The notes under the pieces: model-generated
Told to the model about the DNA's origin: nothing
Seen by the model: the letters and a program-made list of their open reading frames with translations, nothing else
Databases searched by the model: none
Part shown: one piece after another, positions 6,794 to 60,740 of the stretch
Layout: each line of letters starts with the position of its first letter
How positions within the stretch are numbered: the stretch's first letter is position 1
Made by a program: the position numbers and the translations under genes
Origin: Pleionea litopenaei
Lineage (GTDB): Bacteria; Pseudomonadota; Gammaproteobacteria; Enterobacterales; Kangiellaceae
Direction: 5' to 3'
Assembly: GCF_031198435.1 (NCBI RefSeq)
Contig: NZ_CP133548.1
Coordinates: 1,614,501-1,678,500 of the forward strand
Length of the DNA stretch: 64,000 bases

Positions 6794-7303
6794 ATGGCTG
6801 TTAAAAAGAAGAAGGCGCCAGCGAAAAAGAAAGCGGCTGCTAAAAAATCTCCAGCAAAAAAAGTAGCGGCAAAAAAAGCACCCGCTAAAAAGGCAGCGGC
6901 TAAGAAGTCACCTGCTAAAAAAGCGGCAGCGAAAAAATCTCCAGCGAAGAAAGCAGCACCGGCTAAGGCTCCAGCGGCTAAAAAAACCACCGCTGTAAAA
7001 GAGCGTTACAACAAATCTCAAATGCTTAATGAGATCGCTGAAAATACTGAACTAAGCAGAAAGCAAGTGTCTTCAGTTATCGACGAGTTATCGGATATCA
7101 TCGAGCGCCATATCAAGAAACGTGCTTGTGGTGAGTTTGTCATGCCAGGCTTGTTCAAAGTTCAAACGGTTCGCAAACCGGCCACTAAAGCCCGTAAAGG
7201 TATCAACCCATTTACTGGTGAAGAGACTGTATTTAAGGCAAAGCCAGCACGCACAGTCGTCAAGGTTCGTCCTCTTAAAAAGCTTAAAGAAATGGCTGAA
7301 TAA
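6794..7303 (+). CDS. HU/IHF-family DNA-binding protein with histone H1-like lysine-rich N-terminal tail
   Basis: The 169-residue protein is in two parts. Residues 1-72 are almost only Lys, Ala, Pro and Ser in repeats of the type AAKKSPAKK, like eukaryotic histone H1 tails and bacterial AlgP/HctB-type proteins. Residues ~73-169 form an HU-like domain (NKSQMLNEIAENTELSRKQV, helical dimerisation region, then GEFVMPGLFKVQTVRKPATKARKGINPFTGE with the HU-type arm). It probably binds and compacts DNA in the nucleoid, with the tail adding non-specific affinity. It is monocistronic, with an extended -10 element upstream and a strong terminator downstream. Confidence 0.88.
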   Translation: MAVKKKKAPAKKKAAAKKSPAKKVAAKKAPAKKAAAKKSPAKKAAAKKSPAKKAAPAKAPAAKKTTAVKERYNKSQMLNEIAENTELSRKQVSSVIDELSDIIERHIKKRACGEFVMPGLFKVQTVRKPATKARKGINPFTGEETVFKAKPARTVVKVRPLKKLKEMAE

Positions 7304-7339
7304 TCGATTTAGTCACCAAGCGCTTAAGTATCAAATAAG

Positions 7340-7367
7340 AAAAAAGGAGGCCTCAGCCTCCTTTTTT
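7340..7367. terminator. Bidirectional Rho-independent terminator
   Basis: A 12-bp stem (7340-7351 with 7356-7367) with a CTCA loop has A-runs on the left and T-runs on the right. It therefore serves both the HU-like gene (+) and the convergent TonB-like gene (-). Confidence 0.85.
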
Positions 7368-7389
7368 CTTTGTCAGTGAACTTTATTAA

Positions 7390-8010
7390 TTAACTCTCTA
7401 AGTCAAAGTTCAAGGTAACACTTTGAGTCCCAGCTTGAGCTGATAGCTCCTGTTCATCCCCTTTAAAGCGCCATTTATAAACAGCACGAAGTGCTGCACT
7501 GTCAAAAACGCCTTTAGGTTTAGAGTCAACCACGCTCGCCTCGATCACCTGACCTTGATGATTCACGGTAAATTCAACAATAACATAACCTTCAAGACCT
7601 TTAATTCGAGCATCCGTCGGATAAATAGGGGTGACTCTTGAGGCAAAAGACAGGCCGTTGTGCGTACCCGTCGACGGTATGCCGTCTAAGTCTAACGATA
7701 CGTCTGTACTGTTTGGAACCGTGCTCGCGATCGTATTCGGTAATCGAACCAGCTCTAAGGGTTCAGTCACCGAGTTATCCGTTGTTCTGTTCGGTATTTC
7801 AATCTCTTCGGGCTTTTCGGGTTTTGGCTTTTCTTCTTTAATAACAGGACGAGACTTCGTCGCTGCTTCACGTTCACTTATCAGTGGACCATAATCGATT
7901 GGTGGATACACCTTACCTTCTACGAACTTTGCAGACACCAATTGACTCATTAATAGCAGTAAGCCTAAAACAACACTTCCACCAAATAACATAGACCCCA
8001 ATCTTCGCAT
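7390..8010 (-). CDS. TonB-family energy transducer
   Basis: The 206-residue protein has an N-terminal membrane segment (GSVVLGLLLLMSQLV), a short Pro/Glu/Lys-rich periplasmic linker (about residues 52-72), and a C-terminal TonB domain at ~115-206 (VTPIYPTDARIKGLEGYVIVEFTVNHQGQVIEASVVDS...ALRAVYKWRF). TonB proteins use the ExbBD proton-driven motor to open outer-membrane receptors. The linker is short and ExbB/ExbD are not adjacent, so it may be a TonB2-like or dedicated transducer. A TonB-dependent receptor lies elsewhere in the window (24772-27312), but nothing ties the two together. Confidence 0.85.
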   Translation of the reverse strand: MRRLGSMLFGGSVVLGLLLLMSQLVSAKFVEGKVYPPIDYGPLISEREAATKSRPVIKEEKPKPEKPEEIEIPNRTTDNSVTEPLELVRLPNTIASTVPNSTDVSLDLDGIPSTGTHNGLSFASRVTPIYPTDARIKGLEGYVIVEFTVNHQGQVIEASVVDSKPKGVFDSAALRAVYKWRFKGDEQELSAQAGTQSVTLNFDLES

Positions 8011-8088
8011 AATGAACGTCCTCTCTTTTTGTTAGTATTCACACTAACTATCAACGAACTCACAATGCAAAGTGGTCTAACTCGACGC

Positions 8089-9162
8089 TTACCACTTTAA
8101 TTGGCTTAAATAATCTCTCTTGATAACTTGATTGAACGCATTGATCAGCGATTGCGAATATTCGATCTCCGCAAGCTGATTGATCGACTTTACGGCGAAA
8201 AACAAGCTTTTTTTGTACCCTTGCTCCTGACTCTCTAGCGCTAAAGTTATAAACTGATCGACGAGACTTAATATCTTTGCACCATCGAGTACTTGCTCTC
8301 CTCGTAGACGCCTAGGAAAACCATTACCGTCGACTTTTTCATTCGATTGAAATACCAACTCCGACGCCCTACCCCAGCCTGGCATTCGTGCGAGTAAGCT
8401 TCCCGCGGAAAAAACTCGACGACGAGTTTGGTCGCTATCACCACCTTTTACAACGGCAAAAAACTCATAGGTATAGATCGCAGCCAACAACTGATCATCA
8501 TCTTCTGGCTCAGCCAGTAATTGATTTATTGCCTTTGATAAATGAGTAATCACCTTCATGCGAGTCTCATGTAACTCATCGACGGCGTGCTGACACTCAG
8601 ATAAATAATGGAAGAACTCCATATCGGTTGCATCAAAAATAGAAAAGGCTTCGCCTTCAAACTGACTAACCGCCACCAAATTCAAGGAAAAGTGCCGATC
8701 ATTAATTGCCTGCTCAGCGCGTAAAGCTTCTTCTAATTGACGGGGGTATTCATGCTGGCGTACGTGTGCAAACAAAGCTTCAATTTGCTGCAGTTTTTCA
8801 CTTTCTAAAATGCCATCATCCATCAACACGGCCAAACTATCATCAACGGCATTAATTCCAGCGATAAGCAAACGCCCAAATGCGACCGCGTATTCTACGT
8901 TTTGACTTCGAATATCTTGAACGAGCTCTTCAATTAAATGCGTAGTTGAGACAAAGGGCTCTAAAAACACCATATTGCAATTGCCTTTAATGGTATGAAT
9001 CGAGCGAAACATGCGGTTAATTAACACTTGCGGGTCTTCAGATGACAATAGAGGTAAGCAGTCATTAATATCTTTGACGCAATCTTTCACATCGGAGTAA
9101 AACTCTTGTTTTACCTCACCATCGAGTTCTGCAAAAGCCTGACAGATAGATTCTATATTCAC
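8089..9162 (-). CDS. HPt-domain protein with degenerate HD-GYP-like C-terminal domain
   Basis: The 357-residue cytoplasmic protein begins with an HPt phosphotransfer domain (about 10-110). The phospho-accepting His is probably H56 in SIHTIKGNCNMVF, the CheA-type motif. Residues ~180-357 resemble the second half of an HD-GYP phosphodiesterase: NEKVDGNGFPRRLRGEQ (274-290) aligns with HHExxDGxGYPxGLxG, followed by the usual 'ARILSLVDQF' helix. The metal-binding HD pair and the HHE are missing (QSNE instead), so c-di-GMP hydrolysis is unlikely. It probably receives phosphate from an unlinked kinase and signals through the inactive domain. No partner kinase or regulator is adjacent. Confidence 0.75.
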   Translation of the reverse strand: MNIESICQAFAELDGEVKQEFYSDVKDCVKDINDCLPLLSSEDPQVLINRMFRSIHTIKGNCNMVFLEPFVSTTHLIEELVQDIRSQNVEYAVAFGRLLIAGINAVDDSLAVLMDDGILESEKLQQIEALFAHVRQHEYPRQLEEALRAEQAINDRHFSLNLVAVSQFEGEAFSIFDATDMEFFHYLSECQHAVDELHETRMKVITHLSKAINQLLAEPEDDDQLLAAIYTYEFFAVVKGGDSDQTRRRVFSAGSLLARMPGWGRASELVFQSNEKVDGNGFPRRLRGEQVLDGAKILSLVDQFITLALESQEQGYKKSLFFAVKSINQLAEIEYSQSLINAFNQVIKRDYLSQLKW

Positions 9163-9271
9163 TGGCGTTGTTTAAACTTATAAAATTGAAATACTTAGCT
9201 ATCAAGCATAGCAGTTTTCCCCAGCCACAGTATAAGTGCTGGGGAAATCATTGAGTCAACCAAGTGATGAG

Positions 9272-11299
9272 TTATGCGATCAACGGAGCAATAACTAGAC
9301 TCACAATGGCCATCACATTGATTAAAATATTCATGGCTGGCCCTGAGGTATCTTTGAAGGGATCGCCAACCGTATCGCCGACGACGGCGGCTTTATGAAC
9401 GTCACTTCCTTTTCCGCCTAAGTTACCTTTTTCGACGTATTTTTTTGCATTATCCCAAGCACCACCAGCGTTTGCCATTGTCAGAGCGAGCAATACACAG
9501 CTGACAAGAGCTCCGCCTAGCATTCCTCCGAGTGCCTCTGGGCTAATTAAAAAGCCCACAAGCACCGGTGAGAATACGGCGATTGCACCGGGTAACACCA
9601 TTCGCTTTAATGCAGCAGTGGTCGCAATATCGACGCAACGAGCGTTATCAGGCTCGGCTTTTCCTTCGAGTAATCCTGGTATTTCTTTAAATTGCCGACG
9701 AATTTCTTTAATCATGTCAAAGGCCGCATCACCTACCGCTCGCATGGTGATGGCACTGACTAAAAACGGAAATATGCCACCCAAAAACATGCCGGTTAGA
9801 ACGTGCGGATCACTAATACTTAAAGAAAAACCGGGTTTCGCTTTTTCAATGGTTTCAATAAAAGCGGCAATGATTGCCAACGCGGCTAAGCCAGCAGCTC
9901 CGATAGCAAATCCTTTACCAATGGCCGCCGTTGTGTTTCCAACTTCATCTAGCCCATCGGTAATTTTACGTGTGTCTTCGCCTAACTCTGCCATTTCTGC
10001 GATACCACCGGCGTTATCAGCAATCGGACCATAAGCATCGATCGCCATGGTAATTCCAACGGTTGCCAACATCCCCACAGCACCAATACCAACACCATAA
10101 ACGCCGGCGCCTTCGGGAAGAATAGAGCTGGTCACAAAGATAATACCAGCGATAGTAAGCACCGGAATAACTACCGACTCCATTCCGACAGCCAAACCAG
10201 CAATCATAACGGTTGCAGGACCTGTTTCTCCGCCCTGTGCGATGTCTCGGACTGGCTTACCCCCCGTATAATACTCAGTGACTAAGCCAATGATCATTCC
10301 TCCGACAGCGCCACAAATAATGCAAAACCAAACAGAGATGGCAACGCCAAGATAGAGAACCAACCCGTAGGATGCAGCAATTAATAACAGCGTCGCTCCT
10401 ATCGTTCCTATACGCAGTGCTTTAGCAGCATCGGAAGAAGCAACCAATTTCACGGTGAGAATGCCCAAAATAGAACATATCAGTCCTGTCGCAGCAAGAC
10501 CCAGAGGGAGAAACATTAGGGTCTGAATACCTTGAGACGATAGCTGATCCACTGCAACTAGCGCCATGGTTGATGCAATGGCGATGGTGGCTATCATAGA
10601 GCCACAATAAGACTCGAAAATATCCGATCCCATACCAGCAACATCGCCCACGTTGTCACCGACGTTATCGGCAATGACCCCTGGGTTACGAGGATCATCT
10701 TCAGGAATGCCAGCTTCAACCTTTCCGACCAGATCAGCTCCAACGTCAGCACTTTTAGTAAAAATACCACCACCGACACGAGAAAATAATGCAACGGTTG
10801 AAGCGCCCATTCCAAACCCATGAATCGCTTCAGCGTGCTCCGGATTGGCGCCAAAAAGAAGATACAGGCCACCTAAACCGAGCAATCCCATGGCGGCGAC
10901 CACCAAGCCCATAATGGAACCGCCAAAAAACGCTAACGACAGCGCCTGAGCTGGACCTTGTTGGTGAGCGGCGACAGTGGTGCGAACATTGGCATGAGTC
11001 GCTGTGTACATACCTATATAACCAGCAATGGCAGAGCAAAGTGCACCGATCATAAAGGCAACCGGGGTGTGCCAAGATCCAAAGCCAACGTAGAGAAGAG
11101 CGAACAACAGTAGCGCAAAAATCGCTAAGATCTTGTATTCACGATTAAGAAAGACCATAGCACCGAGGTGAATCGCGTTTGCAATTTCGCTCACTTTCCC
11201 CTCACCTGCAGGCTGTTTCTTTATCCAGAGAAAAATAACGATGGCAATAACTATGCCCAAGACACCTAAAATTGGCGGAATAAGTAGCAAGTCGTTCAT
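9272..11299 (-). CDS. hppA: Membrane-bound K+-dependent-type pyrophosphatase (H+ or Na+ pumping)
   Basis: The 675-residue multi-spanning enzyme couples PPi hydrolysis to ion export. Substrate motifs are intact: [11 protein letters not shown] (185-195), [19 protein letters not shown] (201-219) and the C-terminal [18 protein letters not shown]. The subfamily-determining site reads [10 protein letters not shown] (454-463). Ala at 459 and Gly two residues on are typical of K+-dependent enzymes, where K+-independent ones have Lys and Thr. The K+-dependent group includes both H+ and Na+ pumps, which I cannot separate by eye. It is divergent from soluble inorganic pyrophosphatase. Confidence 0.95.
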
Positions 11300-31145: not shown

Positions 31146-31373
31146 TTACTTGTGTGAGTCGCTGTACGGCAACAAGGCCAAGAAACGGGCTCGTTTTACC
31201 GCACGCGCTAATTGGCGTTGGTATTTAGAGCTAGTACCAGTAATACGGCTAGGTACGATTTTACCAGTTTCAGTGATGTAGGCTTTTAAAGTGGCCAGAT
31301 CTTTGTAATCAATTTCAGTAACGTTTTCTGCTGTGAAGCGACAGAATTTACGACGACGGAAAAAACGAGACAT
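31146..31373 (-). CDS. rpsR: 30S ribosomal protein S18
   Basis: The 75-residue protein has the start [13 protein letters not shown] and ends LPYSDSHK, typical for S18. The frame extends two codons to a TTG at 31379, but the ATG at 31373 is correct because AGGAGG lies 8 nt upstream. It binds with S6 to the 30S platform. It lies between rpsF and rplI. Confidence 0.97.
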
Positions 31374-52700: not shown

Positions 52701-53356
52701 TACTGGCTGAAACTGGTCAGGCAATTAAGCTTGAGGGTCAGCTTCGACTCATTAATGGTAAATTTGAGGCGTATAAGCAAGCCTTAGAAATAGAACAAGG
52801 GCAGTTAATATTTTTGGGTGCTGCCGATAACCCAGGCATTCAAATTGCTGCGTCGAGAAAGATTGATGATATAAAAGTTGGGGTATACGCCGATGGTTCA
52901 TTATTAGACCCAAAGCTTACACTCTTTTCTGAACCTGCCATGCCAGAAGAAAATATTGTAGCCCTTCTCCTAACAGGTCGTTCAATAGAGTCACTTTCGA
53001 GTAATGAAGGCAACGCTCTTGCCAATGCGGTGATAGGACTGGGTGTTGAAGGTGCAAACCGTATTGCGGGAAAGATTGGTCAAGCCTTAGGAATTGAAAG
53101 CATTAAGATAACCAGCAGTAGCACGGCCGAAACTTCTCGCGTAAATATCGAAACGCAAGTCAATGAGCGCTTGAGCGTTGGTTATGGAACCACAATAGAC
53201 TCACAAAACCAAACTCAAACAGGCTGGATCATTGAGTACAAGCTCACGCCAAAACTCAGTTTTGAAGCCATCAGTGGCGAAGAAATCAGTACCAGTTTGA
53301 CGTATCGGACCAAATTTGGTCGTGATAAGAAAAATGAGAAAGAATCTGAAAATTAG
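49712..53356 (+). CDS. tamB: Translocation and assembly module subunit TamB (AsmA/DUF490 family)
   Basis: The start is ATG 49712 (MKSILRTFLLLILGLFIVSAI), overlapping the tamA stop; an upstream in-frame ATG at 49679 would only add tamA-coding sequence. The 1214 residues comprise one N-terminal membrane anchor, a long repetitive beta-groove spanning the periplasm, and the conserved DUF490 C-terminus (~880-1214) with LRLINGKFEAYKQALEIEQGQLIFLG and EENIVALLLTGRSIESLSSNEGNAL. It bridges the membranes and moves phospholipid or assists barrel proteins. Confidence 0.96.
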   Translation: MKSILRTFLLLILGLFIVSAIAFGWVYNTTEGLQFALNRAQPYLPKELQLGTVQGTLAHGTQIDSVEWRSESMNISGKNISIKCHWLELLFDQVWCSNIHSENINIVTYGNEQESFSSDLHELPIPPDVRLPWIIRLDEVEANSITLLSQSISSQQTLSETQIDDVLLEKFLWQGNALSVENIEAQINQVNLKMSAELSPQDGWPATINAQVKALGHALTLDVSGELLKQSKGKLVFQTSELSEETVRAQGDFELDYNAGKPKLKLLTTLADARLDRIASELVVVQATNQLSLDWPRLESKLSSQFTFNKDELELNQSLQVQSLLDWRHLASGNLVLAGNLEQTVDQYMSLDQIIRPNVPVSLPTQIDLDWRLSNGALELTKGNFQLSEISATVLASANVNKLPYEDLSVSIKTNMDKQPDWLITNIEHLNSVNKLSHKNTHSPLEISSNGSLANITMPQIRAEKLSWNYKSNEKLNVAILLDEAYVELNDLPTLKLHDLQLNANGLLKKHQFQLSTKINQADFEATGEGVLDTGWTLKDFRSTLKHNDQSASITSTQMELLDSGLTIDNLCLQQRGYWCNTGSLVQSDWHLSSSLKLFDVATIQSWSDVLGFSLPFELAGVLNGSATVSGKSDQINQFDIDLKSPVLSFQDTSSALVFTEMVFKSSHQNKTYQLAATWEHFAEQSQWSHFELSSAAGSGQLIAQVNTLNDWSIALEQPQIATNLSSTTSEDSMSFLFEIPISNFQLNLSLQQDKLLGDTYVQLFDNDWAKLDWQSNWPMNTDSRIKGNGEFSLTQFDWLKRWQSRIDELDINWQHKTTFSGTLAHPNFTGNGQLKVQEFVMEELGLNIKDSYLDIQSVMDTFTLQGTLLNQQGKLDLNGEVKISPELSGFANLKGDKLTIIDSKEQKIVVSPKLFAEYKDNHLNVNGDLLIDEAKISVNKIPQNKVSVSEDQILLVNPKLNPSPFTYRVALNLALGETASFTGLGLSSDITGKLKLLAETGQAIKLEGQLRLINGKFEAYKQALEIEQGQLIFLGAADNPGIQIAASRKIDDIKVGVYADGSLLDPKLTLFSEPAMPEENIVALLLTGRSIESLSSNEGNALANAVIGLGVEGANRIAGKIGQALGIESIKITSSSTAETSRVNIETQVNERLSVGYGTTIDSQNQTQTGWIIEYKLTPKLSFEAISGEEISTSLTYRTKFGRDKKNEKESEN

Positions 53357-53574
53357 CTTGAACTTCTAGTAGAGTAATTTTAACGTATGGTTTAAGTTCT
53401 ATGGAAAAGAACAACTCAGAGTAAAGAAGATAATCCTATTCGACCGATTAATTTATAACACTTACTTTATTCTGCGACTATAGTTGAATGGTATTCGTTT
53501 AAGTAAGGTAGTATCTAGAAGGCTTTGGGCATAGACAAGCCTGTATGGCTATTAGATTAGTTGGAGAGGTATTC

Positions 53575-53955
53575 ATGAAAACGGTTTCTAATGACGCTAG
53601 TGTGACATTGGTTTTTATCAGTTGCTTTATTGCCCTCATCGTTTCACAACCGACATTGGCTGAAGAATCCTTTGGTTTTGAAGGCCAATGGTGTGGCCAT
53701 TGGGACGGTATTTATAAAACCTGCTTAACCGTGTCTAAACAAGCCGATGGTTACGAAGCCTTCTATGAATGGGAAGAACAACGAGGGGCCGCCTTACAGA
53801 AGAAAATGCTAAAGGGTACTGTCATCAATGCCAATACGATAGACTTTGAAAGAAAAGTATTGGTTATCAATTTGCACGATCATAATAAGGCAACCGCCGT
53901 TGGATTATTCAAAGAGTTTTCTCGCATAGCTCCGATGATACGAGTCACCGAATAG
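53575..53955 (+). CDS. Small secreted protein of unknown function
   Basis: The ATG at 53575 is chosen because GGAGAGG lies 5 nt upstream; an in-frame ATG at 53545 lacks this. The 126-residue product has a signal peptide (SVTLVFISCFIALIVSQPTLA) and a mature part beginning FEGQWCGHWDGIYKTCLTVSKQ, with two cysteines likely to pair. It looks like a small lipocalin-like or beta-barrel domain, but I cannot place it. It lies between tamB and the left end of the integron array, on the opposite strand to the cassettes. Confidence 0.65.
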   Translation: MKTVSNDASVTLVFISCFIALIVSQPTLAEESFGFEGQWCGHWDGIYKTCLTVSKQADGYEAFYEWEEQRGAALQKKMLKGTVINANTIDFERKVLVINLHDHNKATAVGLFKEFSRIAPMIRVTE

Positions 53956-54142
53956 ATTTGGCTGAATCAGGTAAATGCCTCACTAACATCAAGATACTTG
54001 ATCTCAATGTTTGTCTTTACTTAATTGTAGTAGCTCATACTCGAGACAAGAGATTAGAATTAACAGGTTGATCTAATCGAACAATTCCACTTTTTACGCA
54101 TGGTGCGCATAAGTAGCGTGTCTAAAATTTTAATTAGCGACT

Positions 54143-54592
54143 TTAAATCTGTTGATTTTTCTTATTACATTTATTCCCAAGCATAAATCCCATAAATACT
54201 ACTAATAAAGTCATAAATGTACTTATATACCACATGTTTGGAACGTTTAGTGAATGCAGGCCACCACCAAAAATAAGCACAGTAATTGATAGCATCAAGA
54301 AGTTTTTAACTCGATATTTCTCATATGATTTAGTGAACAAAAAGCCAAACGAGAACGTAAGGAGAAAAACAAACGTCCAATAAAACCCTATAAATATGAG
54401 TACATATGGAAATAGATAAGGAGCATAGTGCGAACAATATTCAACGTCATGTTCTCTCAAACAAGAGTCAAAAAAACTTTCTGCATATATATAATTATGA
54501 TAGAGATCTAATCGAAAAAATTCGATCACAATAACCACTGTAAATCCAACGAATATTCCTTGCGCGGTTACTTTTAATGCTGATGGTTCCAT
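54143..54592 (-). CDS. Cassette gene: small multi-pass membrane protein
   Basis: The 149-residue protein has about four hydrophobic segments (GIFVGFTVVIVIEFF, YLFPYVLIFIGFYWTFVFLLTF, NFLMLSITVLIFGGG, YISTFMTLLVVFMGFML). No family is recognised. It is the last cassette of the array (distal to intI). An attC lies between it and the preceding cassette, but no clear attC follows it; a weak GTTAATT-type end near 54050 may be a remnant. Confidence 0.65.
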   Translation of the reverse strand: MEPSALKVTAQGIFVGFTVVIVIEFFRLDLYHNYIYAESFFDSCLREHDVEYCSHYAPYLFPYVLIFIGFYWTFVFLLTFSFGFLFTKSYEKYRVKNFLMLSITVLIFGGGLHSLNVPNMWYISTFMTLLVVFMGFMLGNKCNKKNQQI

Positions 54593-54593
54593 T

Positions 54594-54681
54594 ATTTAAC
54601 GCTTCAAATCACTGGGAAATTTAAGTTTTGGAACGAAATAGAGCTGCTTAAATTTATCCATGTGAATTTGCCTTTTTATGC
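54594..54681 (-). other. attC site (cassette 54685-54966)
   Basis: This 88-bp site has left core ATTTAAC (54594-54600). The right core is degenerate TTTATGC (54675-54681), with the expected first G changed. The arms pair well: GGGAAATTTAAG with CTTAAATTTATCC, and CAAATCAC with GTGAATTTG. Confidence 0.65.
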
Positions 54682-54684
54682 ATT

Positions 54685-54966
54685 TCATTTTGATTGCCAG
54701 TTAATTGTGCCATTTGTTGTGTTAACACAATGAGCCTCGGCTTCTAAAAGCGAACCAAAGGGCCCCGTTTCAGAGACTATTCTGTCTTTTTCGGCGGGAG
54801 AATAAAAAATGATATAGAAAAATTCTCCCAACCTATCCTCACTAACTTCTACCGAATCTTCGTAATCTCCACTGCCATAGGCAATATCACGATACTCTAT
54901 CGCAATTTTAGATAGAGCTTTATTATCGTATAACCAGGTTCCTTCTTTAATGATTGAACGATTCAT
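54685..54966 (-). CDS. Cassette gene: small soluble protein of unknown function
   Basis: The 93-residue product starts at ATG 54966 (MNRSIIKEGTWLYDN), with GGA-type purines upstream. A longer in-frame start at 55011 would be translated from attC sequence and is rejected. The protein is acidic, with SPAEKDRIVSETGPFGSLLEAEAHC and a Trp near the end. I recognise no family. It is one of many lone cassette genes in this array. Confidence 0.65.
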   Translation of the reverse strand: MNRSIIKEGTWLYDNKALSKIAIEYRDIAYGSGDYEDSVEVSEDRLGEFFYIIFYSPAEKDRIVSETGPFGSLLEAEAHCVNTTNGTINWQSK

Positions 54967-54981
54967 GATTTCCTTTTTTAT

Positions 54982-55074
54982 GCATAACTCCGCAATAACC
55001 GAGCGAAGCATTACGTAGAAGAGTTAACGAAGCGAACTACGCAATGTGGAGTTCGGTTGATTGCTTTGTTAACC
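54982..55074 (-). other. attC site (ankyrin cassette)
   Basis: This 93-bp site has left core GCATAAC (54982-54988) and right core GTTAACC (55068-55074). The arms pair: CGCAATAACCGA with TCGGTTGATTGC, and GCATTACGTAG with CTACGCAATG. The cassette stop codon (55069-55071) lies in the right core. Confidence 0.8.
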
Positions 55075-55647
55075 ACCTTGGTTCAGTGCCTGTTTAGCGA
55101 GACTAAGATCCATTCCAAATTCTTCTTCCATGCTATGCGCATACTCCATAGGGGTCATAGAGCTTTGGACCATATAACTCAACGCTTCGGACTTTAATGA
55201 TACGTTTGCTCCATGACTAATTAAGTATCAAATTAACCCAGGGTTATTTATCGTCGTAGCTGTATGTAATGGACGCAAGCCATTCGTATATACCTTATTA
55301 ATGTCCTCTCCATACTTCAATCCAAGCTCTATACCTCGTTTAACTCTTTCATTATCAAGGTTATACCCACTTGTACCATATCCACATTTACTGACACCCA
55401 GCGCGACGTAAACCAATGAGCCTCCATCTGAAACATATTGCTCTCCCGCTCCTGTGAACCTCAAGTGATAGTACGCCAAGTTAGACATGTAACGCTCTAA
55501 TATAGTTGGCCCCTCCTTACATGCGTCCCAGCTTCCAATTGTGAATGCACGCTGCGCTATTTTAAATTCACGTTCGGTAGATACATAGTAACCGTAGTGG
55601 ACTAGTAAAATTAACGGAATTATCAGAGCAAGTAGTATTTTTTTCAT
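55069..55647 (-). pseudogene. Cassette gene: exported ankyrin-repeat protein with in-frame stop
   Basis: The frame starts at ATG 55647 with a signal or anchor (ILLALIIPLILLVHYGYYV) and runs to a TGA at 55228-55230. The same frame continues for 52 codons to a TAA at 55069 in the attC core. Across the stop the sequence is ankyrin-like (NGLRPLHTATTINNPGLI-stop-YLISHGANV). A CGA-to-TGA change would explain it, as Arg is common at that repeat position. Intact, it would be 192 residues; truncated, 139. The stop could also be a sequence error. Confidence 0.7.
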
Positions 55648-55653
55648 AATGGT

Positions 55654-55760
55654 GGTTAACGCCTTGCTAACGGGCCCAGCAGAGTGAAACCAGTTTGTGG
55701 TAAAGTGAGCGACAAACTGTGTGGAGCGTAGCTGGGCCCCTGTTTAGCAATTTGTTAGCT
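55654..55760 (-). other. attC site (cassette 55755-56423)
   Basis: This 107-bp site has left core GGTTAAC (55654-55660) and right core GTTAGCT (55754-55760). It has strong arms: GGGCCCAGC with GCTGGGCCC, and TTGCTAA with TTTAGCAA. An inner inverted repeat CAGTTTGT/ACAAACTG forms the variable terminal structure. The cassette stop (55755-55757) lies in the core. Confidence 0.85.
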
Positions 55761-56423
55761 GCTTTTTGGCCAATTACCCGATTGAATTGCATTATTAATA
55801 CACTCAATTTCATTCGTTCTAAAACTTTCAGTAGAAATATGTTCAAGATATAAATTTATATATTCAATTGCTTTATCAGTGCACCCAGCAATATCTTGGA
55901 CAATAGCTAAGGGCTTATACAAACGCTTGACCCAATTATGACATATTTTATTACCAGGTCCGCCACCTAGCATTTCGATCTGCTGTCCGGCATGGGACAA
56001 TGCAGCCTGCTCACTTTTAAATTGTGGAGGCTCCAACCACCTAATTCCATTATCTATGAGCCACCGAATATGATTTGAAACAACATCAAGATTCATATTC
56101 TCTTCAATCCAAGGGACTGCTATTTCTTCAGCCACTGATATCAGTTCATTTAGCTGGTCCAAACGCCACTCATCTGTGCGTTCACCGCCATAGCAAAACT
56201 CACCGAGATAGACTGAATTTTCAAAGGGCCAATAACTAGGTTCAAAAGGTGAATTTATATTTACACCAAACTTAAAATATAGACTCTCATTATCATCAAT
56301 ATCCCGAAAGGAGAAAATTCTAAGAAAGTAGTGTATGTCGCCATTTTTCTTAAAAGCTTCTCCTTTCGAGCTATTGATTCTGTAGCCCTGGTCTTTAAAG
56401 TGACGTACGAATTCTTTTTTCAT
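55755..56423 (-). CDS. Cassette gene: DUF4304-like soluble protein (tentative)
   Basis: The 222-residue protein starts MKKEFVRHFKDQGYRINSSKGEAFKKNGDIHYFLRIFSFRD, a short N-terminal pattern like DUF4304-type proteins that are frequent as stand-alone or cassette genes. It contains W-rich segments (EPSYWPFENSVYLGEFCYGGERTDEWRL) and a helical second half. It has no signal peptide. The stop TAA lies in the attC. The family assignment is tentative and the function unknown. Confidence 0.6.
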   Translation of the reverse strand: MKKEFVRHFKDQGYRINSSKGEAFKKNGDIHYFLRIFSFRDIDDNESLYFKFGVNINSPFEPSYWPFENSVYLGEFCYGGERTDEWRLDQLNELISVAEEIAVPWIEENMNLDVVSNHIRWLIDNGIRWLEPPQFKSEQAALSHAGQQIEMLGGGPGNKICHNWVKRLYKPLAIVQDIAGCTDKAIEYINLYLEHISTESFRTNEIECINNAIQSGNWPKSS

Positions 56424-56427
56424 ATTC

Positions 56428-56479
56428 AGCTAACGTCCAGCGCAGGCGTTGGCTGTCACTCTGCCGCTGTTTGTTATGT
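56428..56479 (-). other. attC site, short (cassette 56474-56896)
   Basis: This 52-bp site has left core AGCTAAC (56428-56434) and right core GTTATGT (56473-56479). The short imperfect arms CAGCGCAGGC and GCCGCTG could pair. It is shorter than usual attC sites. The cassette stop (56474-56476) lies in the core. Confidence 0.65.
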
Positions 56480-56896
56480 TTTGTACCCATACACTCTCAG
56501 CCCACCCGGAGTTCTCTCAACTTCAAATTTACCGATTTTATTAATTATACTCTCTGCATCATCTATATTCTGATACACATACTGAGACGGAATATTGCTC
56601 GGTTTGTATACGTTTATCAGCTCAAGCCATTCAATTTCTTTGTAGAAGTAGCTACAGTCGTTATAGCCTTCAGATACCCAGATTTTCTCTAAATCTTCCT
56701 TTTTTGGCATATAGGTTACATGCGGGTCTATACGGCCTACCCGCTTGAGTAGCATGGCCCTTATATTGATCATATCTACATCGAGCGCAGTGAAAAATCG
56801 CTCCCACTTTGAATTCGACATGAAAGAAGCACTAAACCGATTAGCAATCAGTTTATCTATCCTTCTTTCATGCTCTTTCAGATCAAATCGTTTCAT
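56474..56896 (-). CDS. Cassette gene: DUF6678-like protein (tentative)
   Basis: The 140-residue soluble protein contains SASFMSNSKWERFFTALD and YNDCSYFYKEIEWLELIN, which recall DUF6678-type proteins seen in integron cassettes and near toxin-immunity loci. It contains several Trp/Tyr but no catalytic motif. The stop lies inside the attC core. The identification is from memory of the pattern and is uncertain. Confidence 0.6.
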   Translation of the reverse strand: MKRFDLKEHERRIDKLIANRFSASFMSNSKWERFFTALDVDMINIRAMLLKRVGRIDPHVTYMPKKEDLEKIWVSEGYNDCSYFYKEIEWLELINVYKPSNIPSQYVYQNIDDAESIINKIGKFEVERTPGGLRVYGYKT

Positions 56897-56906
56897 AGGC
56901 TAAGAA

Positions 56907-56978
56907 ACATAACGTTGAAGCTGTGGGGCGCAAACGAAGCGCAGCGTAGTTTGCGTCCGAACGAGTGACTTGTTATGT
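56907..56978 (-). other. attC site (cassette with genes at 56973-57443 and 57478-57738)
   Basis: This 72-bp site has left core ACATAAC (56907-56913) and right core GTTATGT (56972-56978). The arms GGGCGCAAACG and GTTTGCGTCC are nearly perfectly complementary, with a short central loop. It is a textbook attC. The cassette stop (56973-56975) lies in the core. Confidence 0.9.
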
Positions 56979-57443
56979 GTTATTCTCATTCTTTCGCACA
57001 ACTGTTTGGTTAACAATACGACGATTAATTTTTTGTTTCCACGATAACTGCGCGGGGGATAGCTTCCGCTTGTTTTTTGTTTGCATTAAGAAATTGAATT
57101 CTTTTTCGCTGTATATGTAACCCATGTTGTAAGCATGGATGATAAGATCTTCATTTGCATTAGCTTTATCATCTAGTGCGATGCGTTTGAGTCCCGCAAA
57201 GAGGTTGCCGGTGTCAATACCGATAAAGCGATTCACACAAACATTACCAACATATGTTTTATTACCATTTTTCTGATTTTCGAGATAGCATAACTCTTTT
57301 ATCTGCTGCCCACATGGACAATGATCGAAATCTTCGTGCATTTCGACGCCGACTAGCTTCCATTCAGTCTTTGCTAGGTTGAATGTGTGAGCTTCAGAGA
57401 GCGGCAATATATGCGCTTTTAATCGCTCAAAATTATGTTCCAT
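56973..57443 (-). CDS. Cassette gene: cysteine-rich probable zinc-binding protein
   Basis: The 156-residue protein has a Cys cluster CPCGQQIKELCYLEN followed about 20 residues later by NVCVNRFIG, a pattern (CxCxn-C...GxxC) seen in widespread phage and mobile-element proteins of unknown role. It probably binds zinc. The C-terminus is basic (KQKINRRIVNQTVVRKN). It lies 34 bp downstream of 57478-57738 with no attC between, so both seem to share one cassette. Confidence 0.65.
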   Translation of the reverse strand: MEHNFERLKAHILPLSEAHTFNLAKTEWKLVGVEMHEDFDHCPCGQQIKELCYLENQKNGNKTYVGNVCVNRFIGIDTGNLFAGLKRIALDDKANANEDLIIHAYNMGYIYSEKEFNFLMQTKNKRKLSPAQLSWKQKINRRIVNQTVVRKNENNT

Positions 57444-57477
57444 TATCTCCCTCCATGTATTTCACCTGCCAATTAGG

Positions 57478-57738
57478 CTAGTTGTTTGTCGTTTCTTCGA
57501 TACCTATTGGCTCACCCAGAGTTCTAGTTACCCATTCAATTGCTTTTTCGTAGACTTCATCATGTGTCTTTTCTAAAAAATGCTTAGTGTGCCAATCAGT
57601 CTTGAGGGTGTTTTCAGTCCATTGCCCCGATTTCTCATACCATATAACAGTGCCAACATAGTAACCTTGAGGTTGTTCGCTTATTGCTAGGACAAAAAGA
57701 CCATTCTTTTCTTTTATTAGATATTTTCTAGCACTCAT
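57478..57738 (-). CDS. Cassette gene: small soluble protein of unknown function
   Basis: The 86-residue product starts at ATG 57738 (MSARKYLIKEKNGLFVLAI) with AAGGA upstream. A longer frame to 57825 would begin inside the attC and is rejected. It contains paired Trp/Tyr segments (GTVIWYEKSGQW, WHTKHFLEKTHDEVYEKAIEWV). No family is recognised. It is the first gene of an apparent two-gene cassette. Confidence 0.65.
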   Translation of the reverse strand: MSARKYLIKEKNGLFVLAISEQPQGYYVGTVIWYEKSGQWTENTLKTDWHTKHFLEKTHDEVYEKAIEWVTRTLGEPIGIEETTNN

Positions 57739-57756
57739 CTCATATTCCTTTTTTAC

Positions 57757-57870
57757 ACATAACGCTCGCGTCAGGGGCAAAACGTAGTGGAAGTAAATTG
57801 TGGTAAAGTTTGCGGAGCCAACCACAATTTGCCGGAGCGTAGTTTTGTCCCTTGCACGCGCTTGTTATAA
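57757..57870 (-). other. attC site, long (cassette 57865-58422)
   Basis: This 114-bp site has left core ACATAAC (57757-57763) and right core GTTATAA (57864-57870). The arms GGGGCAAAAC and GTTTTGTCCC pair, CGCTCGCG pairs with GCACGCGC, and an inner inverted repeat AAATTGTGGT/ACCACAATTT forms the variable terminal structure. The cassette stop (57865-57867) lies in the core. Confidence 0.85.
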
Positions 57871-58422
57871 CTTTTTCCATAATGTTAGGTCACTACCTGT
57901 GGCGGAAACCAAATATTTACCGCACCAAGAAAACCCGTAAGCTCGAAGGTGCTCAGAATCCAGCTTTTTGCAATAACTACTATGACCGTCAACTAGTGCA
58001 GACTTGTAGTCTTTGCAGAAATACAAATCATATACAGGCCAATTTGGAGCAACAACTTCAATGCTTTCACCAAATTGATTGGAAAGAGGGAGGCCGCCAC
58101 CTTGAAGTCCGGAAGTACATATTTGCTCAGAATCAATTGGGCCTATACCTTCACAAACAAGCTCTCGCTCCTTAAGCCAATCGCCATAAGAACCGTAATC
58201 TCGTGCAACCTTATTTCCCGTATCACAGTCAAAAACACCACGACCCTGACTTGAAACTGCTAGCAAATACGGTCCTTTTTTAGAAAAGCCCAAATCACTC
58301 AGCCCACCTACGGCGGCGCTAGTTACTTTTACCCAACCTTCGGGAGATTCCGCTGCCTTTATTTGATCAAGAATCCTTAAAAGTCGCTCTTGATTTGAAT
58401 CTTTCTTTTTGAATAGCGGCAT
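57865..58422 (-). CDS. Cassette gene: soluble WD/beta-propeller-like protein of unknown function
   Basis: The 185-residue protein has a helical N-terminus (QERLLRILDQIKAAES), then beta-rich sequence with strands such as GPYLLAVSSQGRGVFDCDTG and KYLVSATGSDLTLWKKL that look like one or two propeller blades. It has six cysteines. I recognise no named family. It is the second cassette from the integrase side; its attC is intact, but the one before it is truncated. Confidence 0.6.
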   Translation of the reverse strand: MPLFKKKDSNQERLLRILDQIKAAESPEGWVKVTSAAVGGLSDLGFSKKGPYLLAVSSQGRGVFDCDTGNKVARDYGSYGDWLKERELVCEGIGPIDSEQICTSGLQGGGLPLSNQFGESIEVVAPNWPVYDLYFCKDYKSALVDGHSSYCKKLDSEHLRAYGFSWCGKYLVSATGSDLTLWKKL

Positions 58423-58434
58423 GACCTACCTTGA

Positions 58435-58454
58435 GTTTTAACGCCTTGTTATGT
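58435..58454 (-). other. Collapsed attC remnant
   Basis: Only the two outer cores remain, TTTTAAC and GTTATGT, joined by 5 bp (reading AAC-GCCTT-GTT). Elsewhere in the array the cores are 38-100 bp apart. This fits an internal deletion that removed both hairpin arms, leaving a site that could no longer recombine. Confidence 0.6.
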
Positions 58455-58456
58455 GA

Positions 58457-58864
58457 TTATTCAATTTCATTTAATACTTCTTCAATACTGATAAAGTCTA
58501 AGACCCTTGCTAATTCCATCTGATTATGCAATGAAGCATGTATGACATAGTAAGCTTTTAATGATTCGAGATCTTTAGGAACATTTTCAATAACTGATTT
58601 TAATGCAGAGAAATACTTTTCTTGTAGTTCGTATGGTATGTCCGGATTTCCCTCTCGGTTCCTCGCCACCTCTATTGCAGAAACGAGATCAAGGCATCCA
58701 TTCTCAACCAGTAAAGGAACGCTTGCGTATGAAGCAGTATCTACATCACCTTGATGGTATAAATTTTCCCACAATTCATCAAGAGCTGAACCTTTATCTT
58801 TCTTTAACCTTTCAATAGCACTCCATGGCTCGTATGGAACACGGTACCCTGATTTCAATTCCAT
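58457..58864 (-). CDS. Cassette gene: immunity-like helical protein (tentative)
   Basis: The 135-residue acidic, all-helical protein contains LWENLYHQGDVDTASYASVPLLV, a pattern found in helical-repeat proteins that often stand next to SMI1/KNR4-type immunity genes. It starts with a good GGAGG ribosome site and is the first cassette next to the probable attI. A TATAAT is 36 bp upstream on the same strand. Its function is unknown. Confidence 0.65.
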   Translation of the reverse strand: MELKSGYRVPYEPWSAIERLKKDKGSALDELWENLYHQGDVDTASYASVPLLVENGCLDLVSAIEVARNREGNPDIPYELQEKYFSALKSVIENVPKDLESLKAYYVIHASLHNQMELARVLDFISIEEVLNEIE

Positions 58865-58887
58865 GAGTCCTCCTTATTTTGACTTTC

Positions 58888-58905
58888 GCATAACAGTATA
58901 TTATA
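58888..58905 (-). other. Probable attI core and cassette promoter -10
   Basis: A minus-strand GTTATGC core (58888-58894) lies just upstream of the first cassette gene, where the attI junction is expected. A perfect TATAAT (58900-58905) precedes it and could be the -10 of a cassette promoter; no good -35 is seen. Confidence 0.45.
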
Positions 58906-59023
58906 TTCATTAGAGCGTAAATAAACCGCTCACTTTACACTCCGAGTAGCCTACAGCCCTTTTGCTGTAATAACTAGAGCGAAAATCATATTTTTTGATA
59001 ATGCTGTATAGATCGCTCAATAG

Positions 59024-59281
59024 CATAAGATCCCAGTATATGTTCCAATACTTCTTCAAACAATTAAATTAGTTAGTGATTTATCCACAGATATATATCC
59101 GAAAGCCCTCGCATTAAAGGCTTGTTTAAGTAGTGAATCGATAAATGAAATTGAAGATATTTTTTTCAAAATGAACGTCTGCCCTTTGTTAATGGCTCAA
59201 CTTATGTACGGAGCAGATTTTCGAAAAATGGAAGTTCATAGACTGAGAATCAATGGCATTGATTTTCATCGGCATCAATTT
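59024..59281 (+). pseudogene. intI: Integron-integrase-like tyrosine recombinase remnant
   Basis: The frame after TAG 59021 reads through 86 codons resembling the middle of IntI: SSESINEIEDIFFKM, then LLMAQLMYGADFRKMEVHRLRINGIDFHRHQF. The latter aligns with the family's [26 protein letters not shown], including the box I catalytic Arg (codon 59222-59224). The N-terminal SAM-like domain, the IntI-specific patch, box II (HxxR) and the catalytic Tyr are missing. After residue HQF the sequence is unrelated and runs into the end of the methyltransferase gene on the other strand. It has no start codon of its own. Confidence 0.7.
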
Positions 59282-59384
59282 CCACCGACATCTAATTACC
59301 GTAAGGCAAGGCCGAAGTCTGACTGTCTAACTATATTAAACTCTCTCAATTTCAAAAGTAACGAGGAATCCAGACTAATTCAAC

Positions 59385-60095
59385 TTAATATACCCAAGGT
59401 ATTAATCGATAATGAACTCGCTGAGTATACTCTTCATAACCAGTTAATTCCTTGCGCAATGCTTGATCTTCAAGGTGAGTTCGCACAAGGGTAATGATCA
59501 AAGCGACGGCTACTGGAATAAATGTCCACAAAGAGCTTAACGCTAAAACAATACCAAATAAGGCAATAACATTTCCGGCATAACCCGGGTGACGCACATA
59601 TTGGTAAGGACCAGTGTCACAAACTTTGTGCCCGCGCTCGGTTTGAATTCTAACAACGCTTAGAAAGAAGCGATTTTCAATCAGTGCCCACACAGCAAAA
59701 GCATAACCCAGCGCAGTTAAGATCAATCCAAGAATCGTCACTTCTACTGAAAACTCGATTGACCATTGAAAACGATGATCAAGCCCGGCAACGATTTGTA
59801 ATGGAAACCCTATACTCAACGCCATTAGAGGTGCCAGAAGTTTATCCCAAGTCTTGGCCTGTCTAAACTGTTCGATATCTTGTCGATCGTCCATGAGACC
59901 AGGGTGTCGCTGCTCAGCTAAAGCCCTGCCATAAACGCCTGCAATAAAGAGTATTATTGAATAGCACCATCCCTGCCACCAGAAAAGATCACCACTGCAG
60001 CTAAGCAATACAATAGGGAACAGAAGATATAATACAACCAAGCGAATCCATGCTCGATAATGAGATGTCTGCGTTGTGGTTTTATGAACATTCAT
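59385..60095 (-). CDS. Isoprenylcysteine/phospholipid methyltransferase-like membrane protein
   Basis: The 236-residue protein has five or so membrane segments and the C-terminal ICMT/PEMT signature GPYQYVRHPGYAGN...EDQALRKELTGYEEYTQRVHYRLIPWVY, which binds S-adenosylmethionine. Bacterial members methylate unknown small or lipid substrates. Its 3' end coincides with the point where the integrase remnant loses similarity, so the junction of the integron scar may be near this gene's end. Confidence 0.85.
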   Translation of the reverse strand: MNVHKTTTQTSHYRAWIRLVVLYLLFPIVLLSCSGDLFWWQGWCYSIILFIAGVYGRALAEQRHPGLMDDRQDIEQFRQAKTWDKLLAPLMALSIGFPLQIVAGLDHRFQWSIEFSVEVTILGLILTALGYAFAVWALIENRFFLSVVRIQTERGHKVCDTGPYQYVRHPGYAGNVIALFGIVLALSSLWTFIPVAVALIITLVRTHLEDQALRKELTGYEEYTQRVHYRLIPWVY

Positions 60096-60201
60096 AGTGA
60101 TGCTTCTATTCTAACTGTTTAATACGCAAACGGCTGATTATGTCTGAGTGATGACTTTATAATAATTAGTTAATTTGCAGTTACGTTAATCTATGCGACC
60201 A

Positions 60202-60292
60202 TTCTCTACAAGCGTTCTCTACTAGAATTCTCCAAACATTTGAACTAGGTATTGAAACTAGAGACTGAACCTAGGATTTTAAACTAAGTATA
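60202..60292. repeat. Imperfect 13-bp tandem repeat, 7 units, abutting a start codon
   Basis: Seven consecutive 13-bp units start at 60202, 60215, 60228, 60241, 60254, 60267 and 60280. The first three share TTCTC(T/C)A and the last four share GAAACTAG(G/A). They end 4 bp before the ATG at 60297, so the leader and ribosome-binding region of that gene consist of repeat. Confidence 0.7.
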
Positions 60293-60296
60293 GATT

Positions 60297-60740
60297 ATGA
60301 ATATTTTGACTCAAATCAATGGTTTCGCACTGCTAGCGGGTCTTTTAGTCTCAGCGTTCATTATAGTTTCTCTTCGTTCAAAGCATCTTAAAGTGACCTT
60401 TCGAAACTACGTCATTCTTTTGGCAACTTTCCCAGTCTACTATTGGTGGTTCTCAATTTATGATGGTAATGTTTCAGCTCTCTTACGCGAGGTCGCTATC
60501 GGCTTATTATTTATAGTCATAGCATGGCTTGCTTATCGACTTAAGTTACCGGTAAGTGCTTTGGTTTTATCCTTTGGTTTTGTTGCTCATGGTGTTTATG
60601 ACTTTTTGCACTTTGCTCTATTTGAAATGACCGTCGCTCCTACGTGGTGGCCTGAGTTTTGTGGCATCATTGATATTTTACTCGGCCTGTATATTCTAAA
60701 AATACTGTTGACATCAAAAGCCCAAAAACTAGAAACTTAG
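60297..60740 (+). CDS. Small multi-pass membrane protein
   Basis: The 147-residue protein has four or five membrane segments and the conserved-looking stretch VLSFGFVAHGVYDFLHFALFEM...WWPEFCGIIDILLGLYIL. This recalls DUF6010-type proteins (HxxYDxxH and PxWWPxFC); the match is tentative. No function is known. The 3' end overlaps the stop of the convergent dnaE2 gene by 4 bp. The 5' leader is a 13-bp tandem repeat. Confidence 0.65.
   Translation: MNILTQINGFALLAGLLVSAFIIVSLRSKHLKVTFRNYVILLATFPVYYWWFSIYDGNVSALLREVAIGLLFIVIAWLAYRLKLPVSALVLSFGFVAHGVYDFLHFALFEMTVAPTWWPEFCGIIDILLGLYILKILLTSKAQKLET

Follow-up and report, generated by a model that had tools for sequence, protein, structure and literature searches.

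We analysed a stretch of 64,000 nucleotides of Pleionea litopenaei (contig NZ_CP133548.1, positions 1,614,501 to 1,678,500; this whole stretch is called the window, and positions refer to it unless another sequence is named). The region 54143-59278 is almost certainly a decayed sedentary chromosomal integron whose integrase died, after at least eight cassettes had been captured. This reading was supported by matches to a covariance model of attC sites, by a rule relating the two ends of each cassette, by an attI-like region, by a divergent remnant of the integrase gene intI and by the absence of the array from the orthologous locus of the two genus mates in which it could be tested. An earlier note on this DNA had proposed a decayed chromosomal integron, which the same evidence bears out; its description as previously hidden was too strong, because pseudogenised intI, multiple integrase genes in one genome and integrase-less attC clusters are common in the literature (PMC2426708, PMC9024848). 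The kind is already known, namely the pseudo-integron, and the surprise is the amount of record left together with a cassette protein, here called X.

attC sites and the integrase remnant

Training sites for the attC models were picked by motif and stem in integron arrays of relatives, the arrays being located by integrase matches. Thirty-two long and 13 short sites were listed and 24 and 12 of them were used, near-duplicates and two doubtful readings being left out. Model R1 comprised the 24 long sites, from eight loci of eight other genomes (one of the same genus), and model R2 the 12 short ones; neither held a site from the window or its genome. Both were run against the whole window, on both strands, with filters off and at E<=10. 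Coordinates and lengths of attC sites are given as called, including four flanking bases per side.

R1 gave 16 matches in the 64 kb, and the top seven were all on the minus strand within 54593-58455, with scores from 49.0 down to 14.6 bits (Table 1), the best of the nine others reaching 12.0 bits. This was the outcome of the covariance-model check that the earlier note had proposed for the region, and the six attC sites of 52-114 bp that it had claimed were found, measuring 54-116 bp as called, with a stemless seventh in addition. The same seven were among the 12 matches of R2, weaker overall, together with a likely false match at 31166 (rank 4, 18.3 bits). A motif-plus-stem script returned five minus-strand sites, all within the region, one of them being a shorter inner reading of 54981-55075, and no attC on the plus strand of the window; Rfam gave no match at gathering thresholds. 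When folded as single-stranded bottom strands, the sites at 57756, 56906, 55653 and 54981 beat their shuffles (z scores from -2.0 to -4.05). After cassette 8 no attC was found, R1 being without a match left of 54593 within the region. The word of the stemless site (58435-58455) was absent from the other loci compared and was seen only in overlapping extracts of this same place.

At the right-hand end, TIGR02249 matched 59141-59278 (model positions 104-149 of 315) with 29 bits and E 1.1e-6, and with 26 bits as protein, which confirmed the divergent integrase remnant proposed by the earlier note, although no more than roughly one seventh of the integrase can be recognised. The remnant lacks the catalytic residues that lie in the C-terminal part of proteins of this family. 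Among the proteins compared, the closest to the remnant was the open IntI of a genus mate, G003 (74% over 47 residues), followed by the two other integrases of the same genome, IntI-A (51%) and IntI-B (44%). At the DNA level, 59137-59278 matched the inside of the G003 intI gene at 75% identity over 142 nt, and no intI homology was found beyond 59278 in this comparison. Next to the remnant, 58871-59104 aligned over 236 columns, with 78% identity, to the DNA that lies upstream of the G003 intI gene, and the homology faded in both genomes at the junction word that we took as the start of cassette 1. The attI-like match and the intI match are about 400 bp apart in G003 and 32 bp apart in the window, implying that about 370 bp were lost, including the start and the N-terminal part of intI.

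The integron of G003 (L109) is like that of the window in its integrase lineage, its attI-like region and its attC sites on the minus strand; it differs in having an open integrase, in lying at another locus and in its first cassette genes, which are different open reading frames. On the attI side of the open intI, minus-strand open reading frames were found with four R1 matches among them (73.5, 28.8, 25.0 and 19.4 bits, the 25.0-bit one cut by the contig end). The locus orthologous to that of the window was testable in two of the four genus mates, the genes being on different contigs in G001 and a TamB match being absent in G002. In G003, the matches to TamB and to the DnaE2/ImuC-like protein end about 60 bp apart, and in G004 the two genes are separated by 1.8 kb, in which 53545-53955 has its orthologue, accompanied by a lipoprotein-like gene. 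R1 at E<=10 had no match in the orthologous stretch of either genome, and no integron is present there.

Cassette boundaries and competing explanations

Cassette insertion leaves the bases at the start of the cassette (G|TTRRRY, which form the R' end of the preceding site) complementary to the R'' box in the attC that the cassette carries at its far end. The seven testable cassettes (1-7) matched at 7, 7, 8, 8, 8, 8 and 7 of eight positions, 53 of 56 in total, as compared with 36 of 56 when pairing was made within the same site and with an average of 5.1 of eight for the off-diagonal pairs. Only two of 5040 permutations reached 53, the true order being one of these. Start-to-R'' complementarity is the signature of cassette-by-cassette capture. 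In control arrays, the adjacent pairs that were perfect on the four variable bases numbered 13 of 14 (L033), three of four (L048) and three of seven (L038); in the IntI-B array of the same genome five of 14 pairs were perfect and nine of 14 matched at seven or more of eight positions.

By the boundary rule, 57478-57738 and 56973-57443 belong to a single unit whose ends match, and no attC was found between the two genes; an internal attC may have been lost there, since the R'' word of cassette 3 occurs twice in the array. The claim that attC sites separate the small genes needs correction for these two, which lie within one attC-bounded unit. In general, the genes are co-oriented, an attC follows each one and each start is complementary to its R'', the exceptions being cassette 8, for which no attC was found, and cassette 3, with its two genes.

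Several observations weigh against an integron. The bottom-strand folding that the earlier note had suggested as a check singled out four sites, and 56427 (z -0.63), 54593 (z -1.61) and the stemless site did not stand out, the first two folding no better than shuffles. R2 gave 54593 only rank 10, with 9.2 bits, and the stemless site, taken alone, has an E of 0.21. The attI junction word was chosen by eye, at the point where the homology to G003 fades. Finally, the boundary rule was uneven in other attC groups of the genome (pairs with at least three of the four variable bases: two of two in L139, one of one in L143, one of three in L141 and none of three in L142), so that some matches there may be false, or neighbours may have been missed.

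The folding results would suit an ordinary series of small genes, with palindromes between them that are due to chance or to a repeat family, because two of the sites do not differ from shuffles. Against such a series, the best seven model matches of the 64 kb fall in 3.9 kb of one strand, the boundary words agree by cassette and not by site, and an integrase remnant is present; the attC model matches, the boundary rule and the remnant jointly refuted this explanation, to which we attach practically no credence. The earlier note had named as contrary evidence a lack of both model hits and attC-shaped folds, or the same gene order in distant relatives without attC sites. What we found were hits to an attC model of our own build and no such order around the relatives of single cassette genes, where the gene order of distant relatives was viewed.

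That the cluster never owned an integrase, and received its cassettes in trans from one of the two other integrases of the genome, is very improbable. The genome does contain those two further integrase genes and several attC clusters with no integrase match nearby, in one of which a cassette gene of the array has a paralogue; however, the attI end of the array is exactly where an attI-like region and, divergent as expected, the fragment of a third intI lineage are found. A mobile integron, brought in by a transposon or island, that landed between TamB and the DnaE2/ImuC-like gene and then decayed is conceivable and, in our judgement, rather unlikely. The integron is absent from this locus in G003 and G004, the G003 integron is in a different neighbourhood and a flanking methyltransferase gene looks acquired, all in favour of such an arrival, but neither a transposase nor a mobility gene was seen in 53356-60737 among the open reading frames and family results (terminal repeats were not searched), and loss from the sisters, or a rearrangement, would give the same picture.

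For the decayed sedentary integron we propose that an IntI of the lineage still open in a genus mate would have taken up at least eight cassettes successively at the adjoining attI; the boundary rule and the orientation, together with the attI-like region, support such serial capture at attI. The start and the N-terminal part of intI, and everything beyond model position 149 or so, were lost later, and with losses at both ends no integrase can be made at this locus. The marks of decay are the deletion of about 370 bp, the missing C-terminus of the integrase, a stemless attC, a mutated R'' in another attC and a cassette gene with an in-frame stop; the remaining cluster, whose terminal attC was not found, is eroding. 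IntI-A, which is open elsewhere in the genome, might excise cassettes 3-5 in trans, because they are flanked by well-preserved sites. Any cassette genes that lack a promoter of their own are probably poorly expressed.

An intact intI is absent, the 29 bits of the remnant standing against a TIGR02249 cut-off of 265; there are at least two clustered attC sites (E<=2e-4 for five matches, 0.014 and 0.21 for the other two), and no functional integrase adjoins them. The array therefore fits the pseudo-integrons and CALIN, which are attC clusters without integrase proposed as degraded integrons (IntegronFinder 2.0, PMC9024848). In one survey nearly one third of the intI genes were pseudogenes and 20% of the surveyed bacteria had more than one integrase gene (PMC2426708). 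Like these pseudo-integrons, the Pleionea array combines attC sites with a broken intI in a genome with more than one integrase gene, but the abstract of that survey counts stop codons and frameshifts, whereas in the Pleionea array most of intI is gone. It resembles CALIN in having at least two attC sites, no usable integrase and a size near the average of almost six attC given in the available part of PMC9024848; it differs in retaining the attI-like region and part of the integrase gene. With an open relative in a genus mate, and with one open and one split integrase gene and further attC clusters in its own genome, the array is a clean example of an integron in mid-decay, and can serve to test how clusters without integrase come about and whether an integrase elsewhere in the genome is still able to mobilise them.

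Protein X of cassette 3

The second gene of cassette 3 encodes protein X, whose relatives were found in five of 368 other genomes of the class, in 84 of 72,556 plasmid records and at 28 loci of viral contigs, and in none of 50,697 phage records. An alignment of 21 sequences had 12 invariant positions, including four cysteines. The AlphaFold2 model was confident, and no meaningful PDB match and no Pfam or PADLOC model were found for the protein.

Ten plasmid neighbourhoods were inspected, out of 19 records at 60% identity or more. In eight of them X was the annotated gene directly after a pair of helix-turn-helix and ImmA/IrrE-type genes. At L153 this pair matched the PADLOC models capH (2e-24) and capP (7e-62) and lay beside a CBASS cyclase, an E2 and an HNH-SAVED effector; in six more plasmids the pair matched that of L153 by tblastn (CapH 84-100%, CapP 76-95%). 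The eighth plasmid (L164) matched for CapP alone, at 23%. In the ninth plasmid X ended a multiubiquitin-ThiF-DUF6527 run, from which a CapH-CapP-type pair diverged, and in the tenth only a CapP tail was left, beside IS21. Few of these cases are independent, because seven of the eight plasmids carry operons closely related to a single rhizobial one. The loci listed for X with CapH-CapP-type regulators on plasmids were L153, L154, L164, L165 and L169-L173. No CapH-CapP-type gene was found beside three inspected X matches below 60% identity, nor at 27 of the 28 viral loci. At the viral locus L180, X precedes genes that, by inspection and without a family search, resemble a primase-helicase and a DNA polymerase.

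Within the class, an 80% relative of X (L155) lies near a run of JAB-, E2-like, ubiquitin-like and E1-like genes at 6841-9462 of its locus, and a 74% relative (L156) is a single-gene unit between attC sites, with start and R'' words identical to those of cassette 3. In the eight inspected plasmids mentioned, X relatives directly follow a gene pair of the CapH-CapP type, the regulators of CBASS and related operons described in PMC13373217 and represented by PADLOC models; unlike in those systems, X in the window is a cassette gene without capH or capP among the other cassettes and neighbours, and the available part of PMC13373217 does not mention a third gene. The source genome has two weak capP-model matches elsewhere. 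A capP-model match of 58.7 bits, at C1:3145219-3145548, is about 1.3 kb from a tyrosine-recombinase match (3143390-3143932) and is perhaps part of a prophage or island.

Tentatively, and with more doubt than confidence, we suggest that the CapH-CapP DNA-damage switches controlling anti-phage operons (CBASS and ubiquitin-like) could have in X a third, so far undescribed component, one that could also travel on its own, both in integron cassettes and in phages, and regulate, or counter-regulate, defence in the recipient cell. X ties integron cargo to a neighbourhood of anti-phage regulation, and it offers a concrete target in a family for which neither a Pfam or PADLOC model nor a PDB match was found.

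Other cassette genes, flanks and attC clusters of the genome

The features of the array are collected in Table 1. The only cassette gene above the Pfam cut-off was that of cassette 4, and at E<=0.1 none of the nine cassette genes matched PADLOC; the ankyrin and immunity-like proteins that the earlier note had seen among them found no Pfam support. The two pieces of the cassette 6 gene, searched separately, had no Pfam match either. The cassette 1 gene has a relative in one of the 368 other genomes of the class (59%), beside an attC, and the cassette 2 gene has a paralogue (69%) at 367 kb in the same genome, flanked by two attC sites, as well as matches in 26 plasmid records, all below 60% identity. 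Altogether, relatives of three cassette genes adjoin attC sites elsewhere (L156, 74%; L157, 39%; L159, 59%), in addition to that paralogue.

Table 1. Components of the decayed integron, listed from the integrase end of the array
Feature	Position	Strand	Evidence or remark
IntI remnant, 46 codons	59137-59278	+	TIGR02249, model positions ~104-149 of 315; N-terminal part lost, no recognisable sequence beyond 59278
attI-like region	58887-59104		Meets cassette 1 at 58887-58894 (junction word G|TTATGCG, minus strand)
Cassette 1 gene, 135 aa, no known family	58457-58864	-	No significant Pfam, NCBIfam, PADLOC or PHROGs match
attC of cassette 1, stem lost, R'' and R' ends only	58435-58455	-	R1 14.6 bits, E 0.21; R2 16.6 bits; no hairpin, z -0.97
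Cassette 2 gene, 185 aa, no known family	57865-58422	-	Paralogue in same genome
attC of cassette 2	57756-57871	-	R1 49.0 bits, E 1.5e-10; fold z -3.0
Cassette 3, first gene (Y), 86 aa, no known family	57478-57738	-	No family match, no plasmid match
Cassette 3, second gene (X), 156 aa, zinc-type CxCG...C...C protein	56973-57443	-	Sequence motif; AlphaFold2 mean pLDDT 92.2
attC of cassette 3	56906-56979	-	R1 19.0 bits, E 0.014; fold z -2.3
Cassette 4 gene, DUF6678 family	56474-56896	-	PF20383, 31.2 bits (cut-off 24.5)
attC of cassette 4, short	56427-56480	-	R1 30.3 bits; R2 31.5 bits; fold z -0.63
Cassette 5 gene, 222 aa, no known family	55755-56423	-	No family match, no plasmid match
attC of cassette 5	55653-55761	-	R1 48.0 bits, E 2.8e-10; fold z -4.05
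Cassette 6 gene, in-frame stop at 55228-55230, frame then open to ~55072	55072-55647	-	Neither piece matches Pfam
attC of cassette 6, altered base before R'	54981-55075	-	R1 39.7 bits, E 4.5e-8; fold z -2.0
Cassette 7 gene, 93 aa, no known family	54685-54966	-	No PADLOC match at E<=0.1
attC of cassette 7, R'' mutated (AAC lost)	54593-54682	-	R1 26.0 bits, E 1.9e-4; R2 9.2 bits; fold z -1.61
Cassette 8 gene, 149 aa, hydrophobic	54143-54592	-	Pfam YwiC below threshold only (15.3 of 25 bits)

Beyond the intI remnant lies a gene for a PEMT/ICMT-type membrane methyltransferase (59385-60095), whose best relatives are mostly 57-65% identical and occur in scattered phyla, and which has a match in only one of the four genus mates (34%). 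To judge from these comparisons, it was probably acquired.

The source genome comprises 4.42 Mb in three contigs. The open integrase gene, IntI-A, is at 1.008 Mb with one strong attC match adjoining, and the gene of IntI-B, at 1.999 Mb, is split, its C-terminal piece being found about 1.2 kb further on; on its attI side there were 13 R1 matches at E<=0.01 and 15 at E<=3. Transposase-like open reading frames were seen among the cassettes of the IntI-B integron (L019/L020, about 1.98-2.00 Mb). Genome-wide, R1 gave at least 24 matches at E<=10, 150 of 938 first-look candidates having been scored. Further attC groups or single matches (L138-L144), with no integrase match adjoining, were located near 0.10, 0.37, 1.26, 1.71, 3.39, 4.09 and 4.26 Mb; the weaker matches outside the window are not individually secure. 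Cassettes appear, from the positions of these matches, to be scattered over the chromosome.

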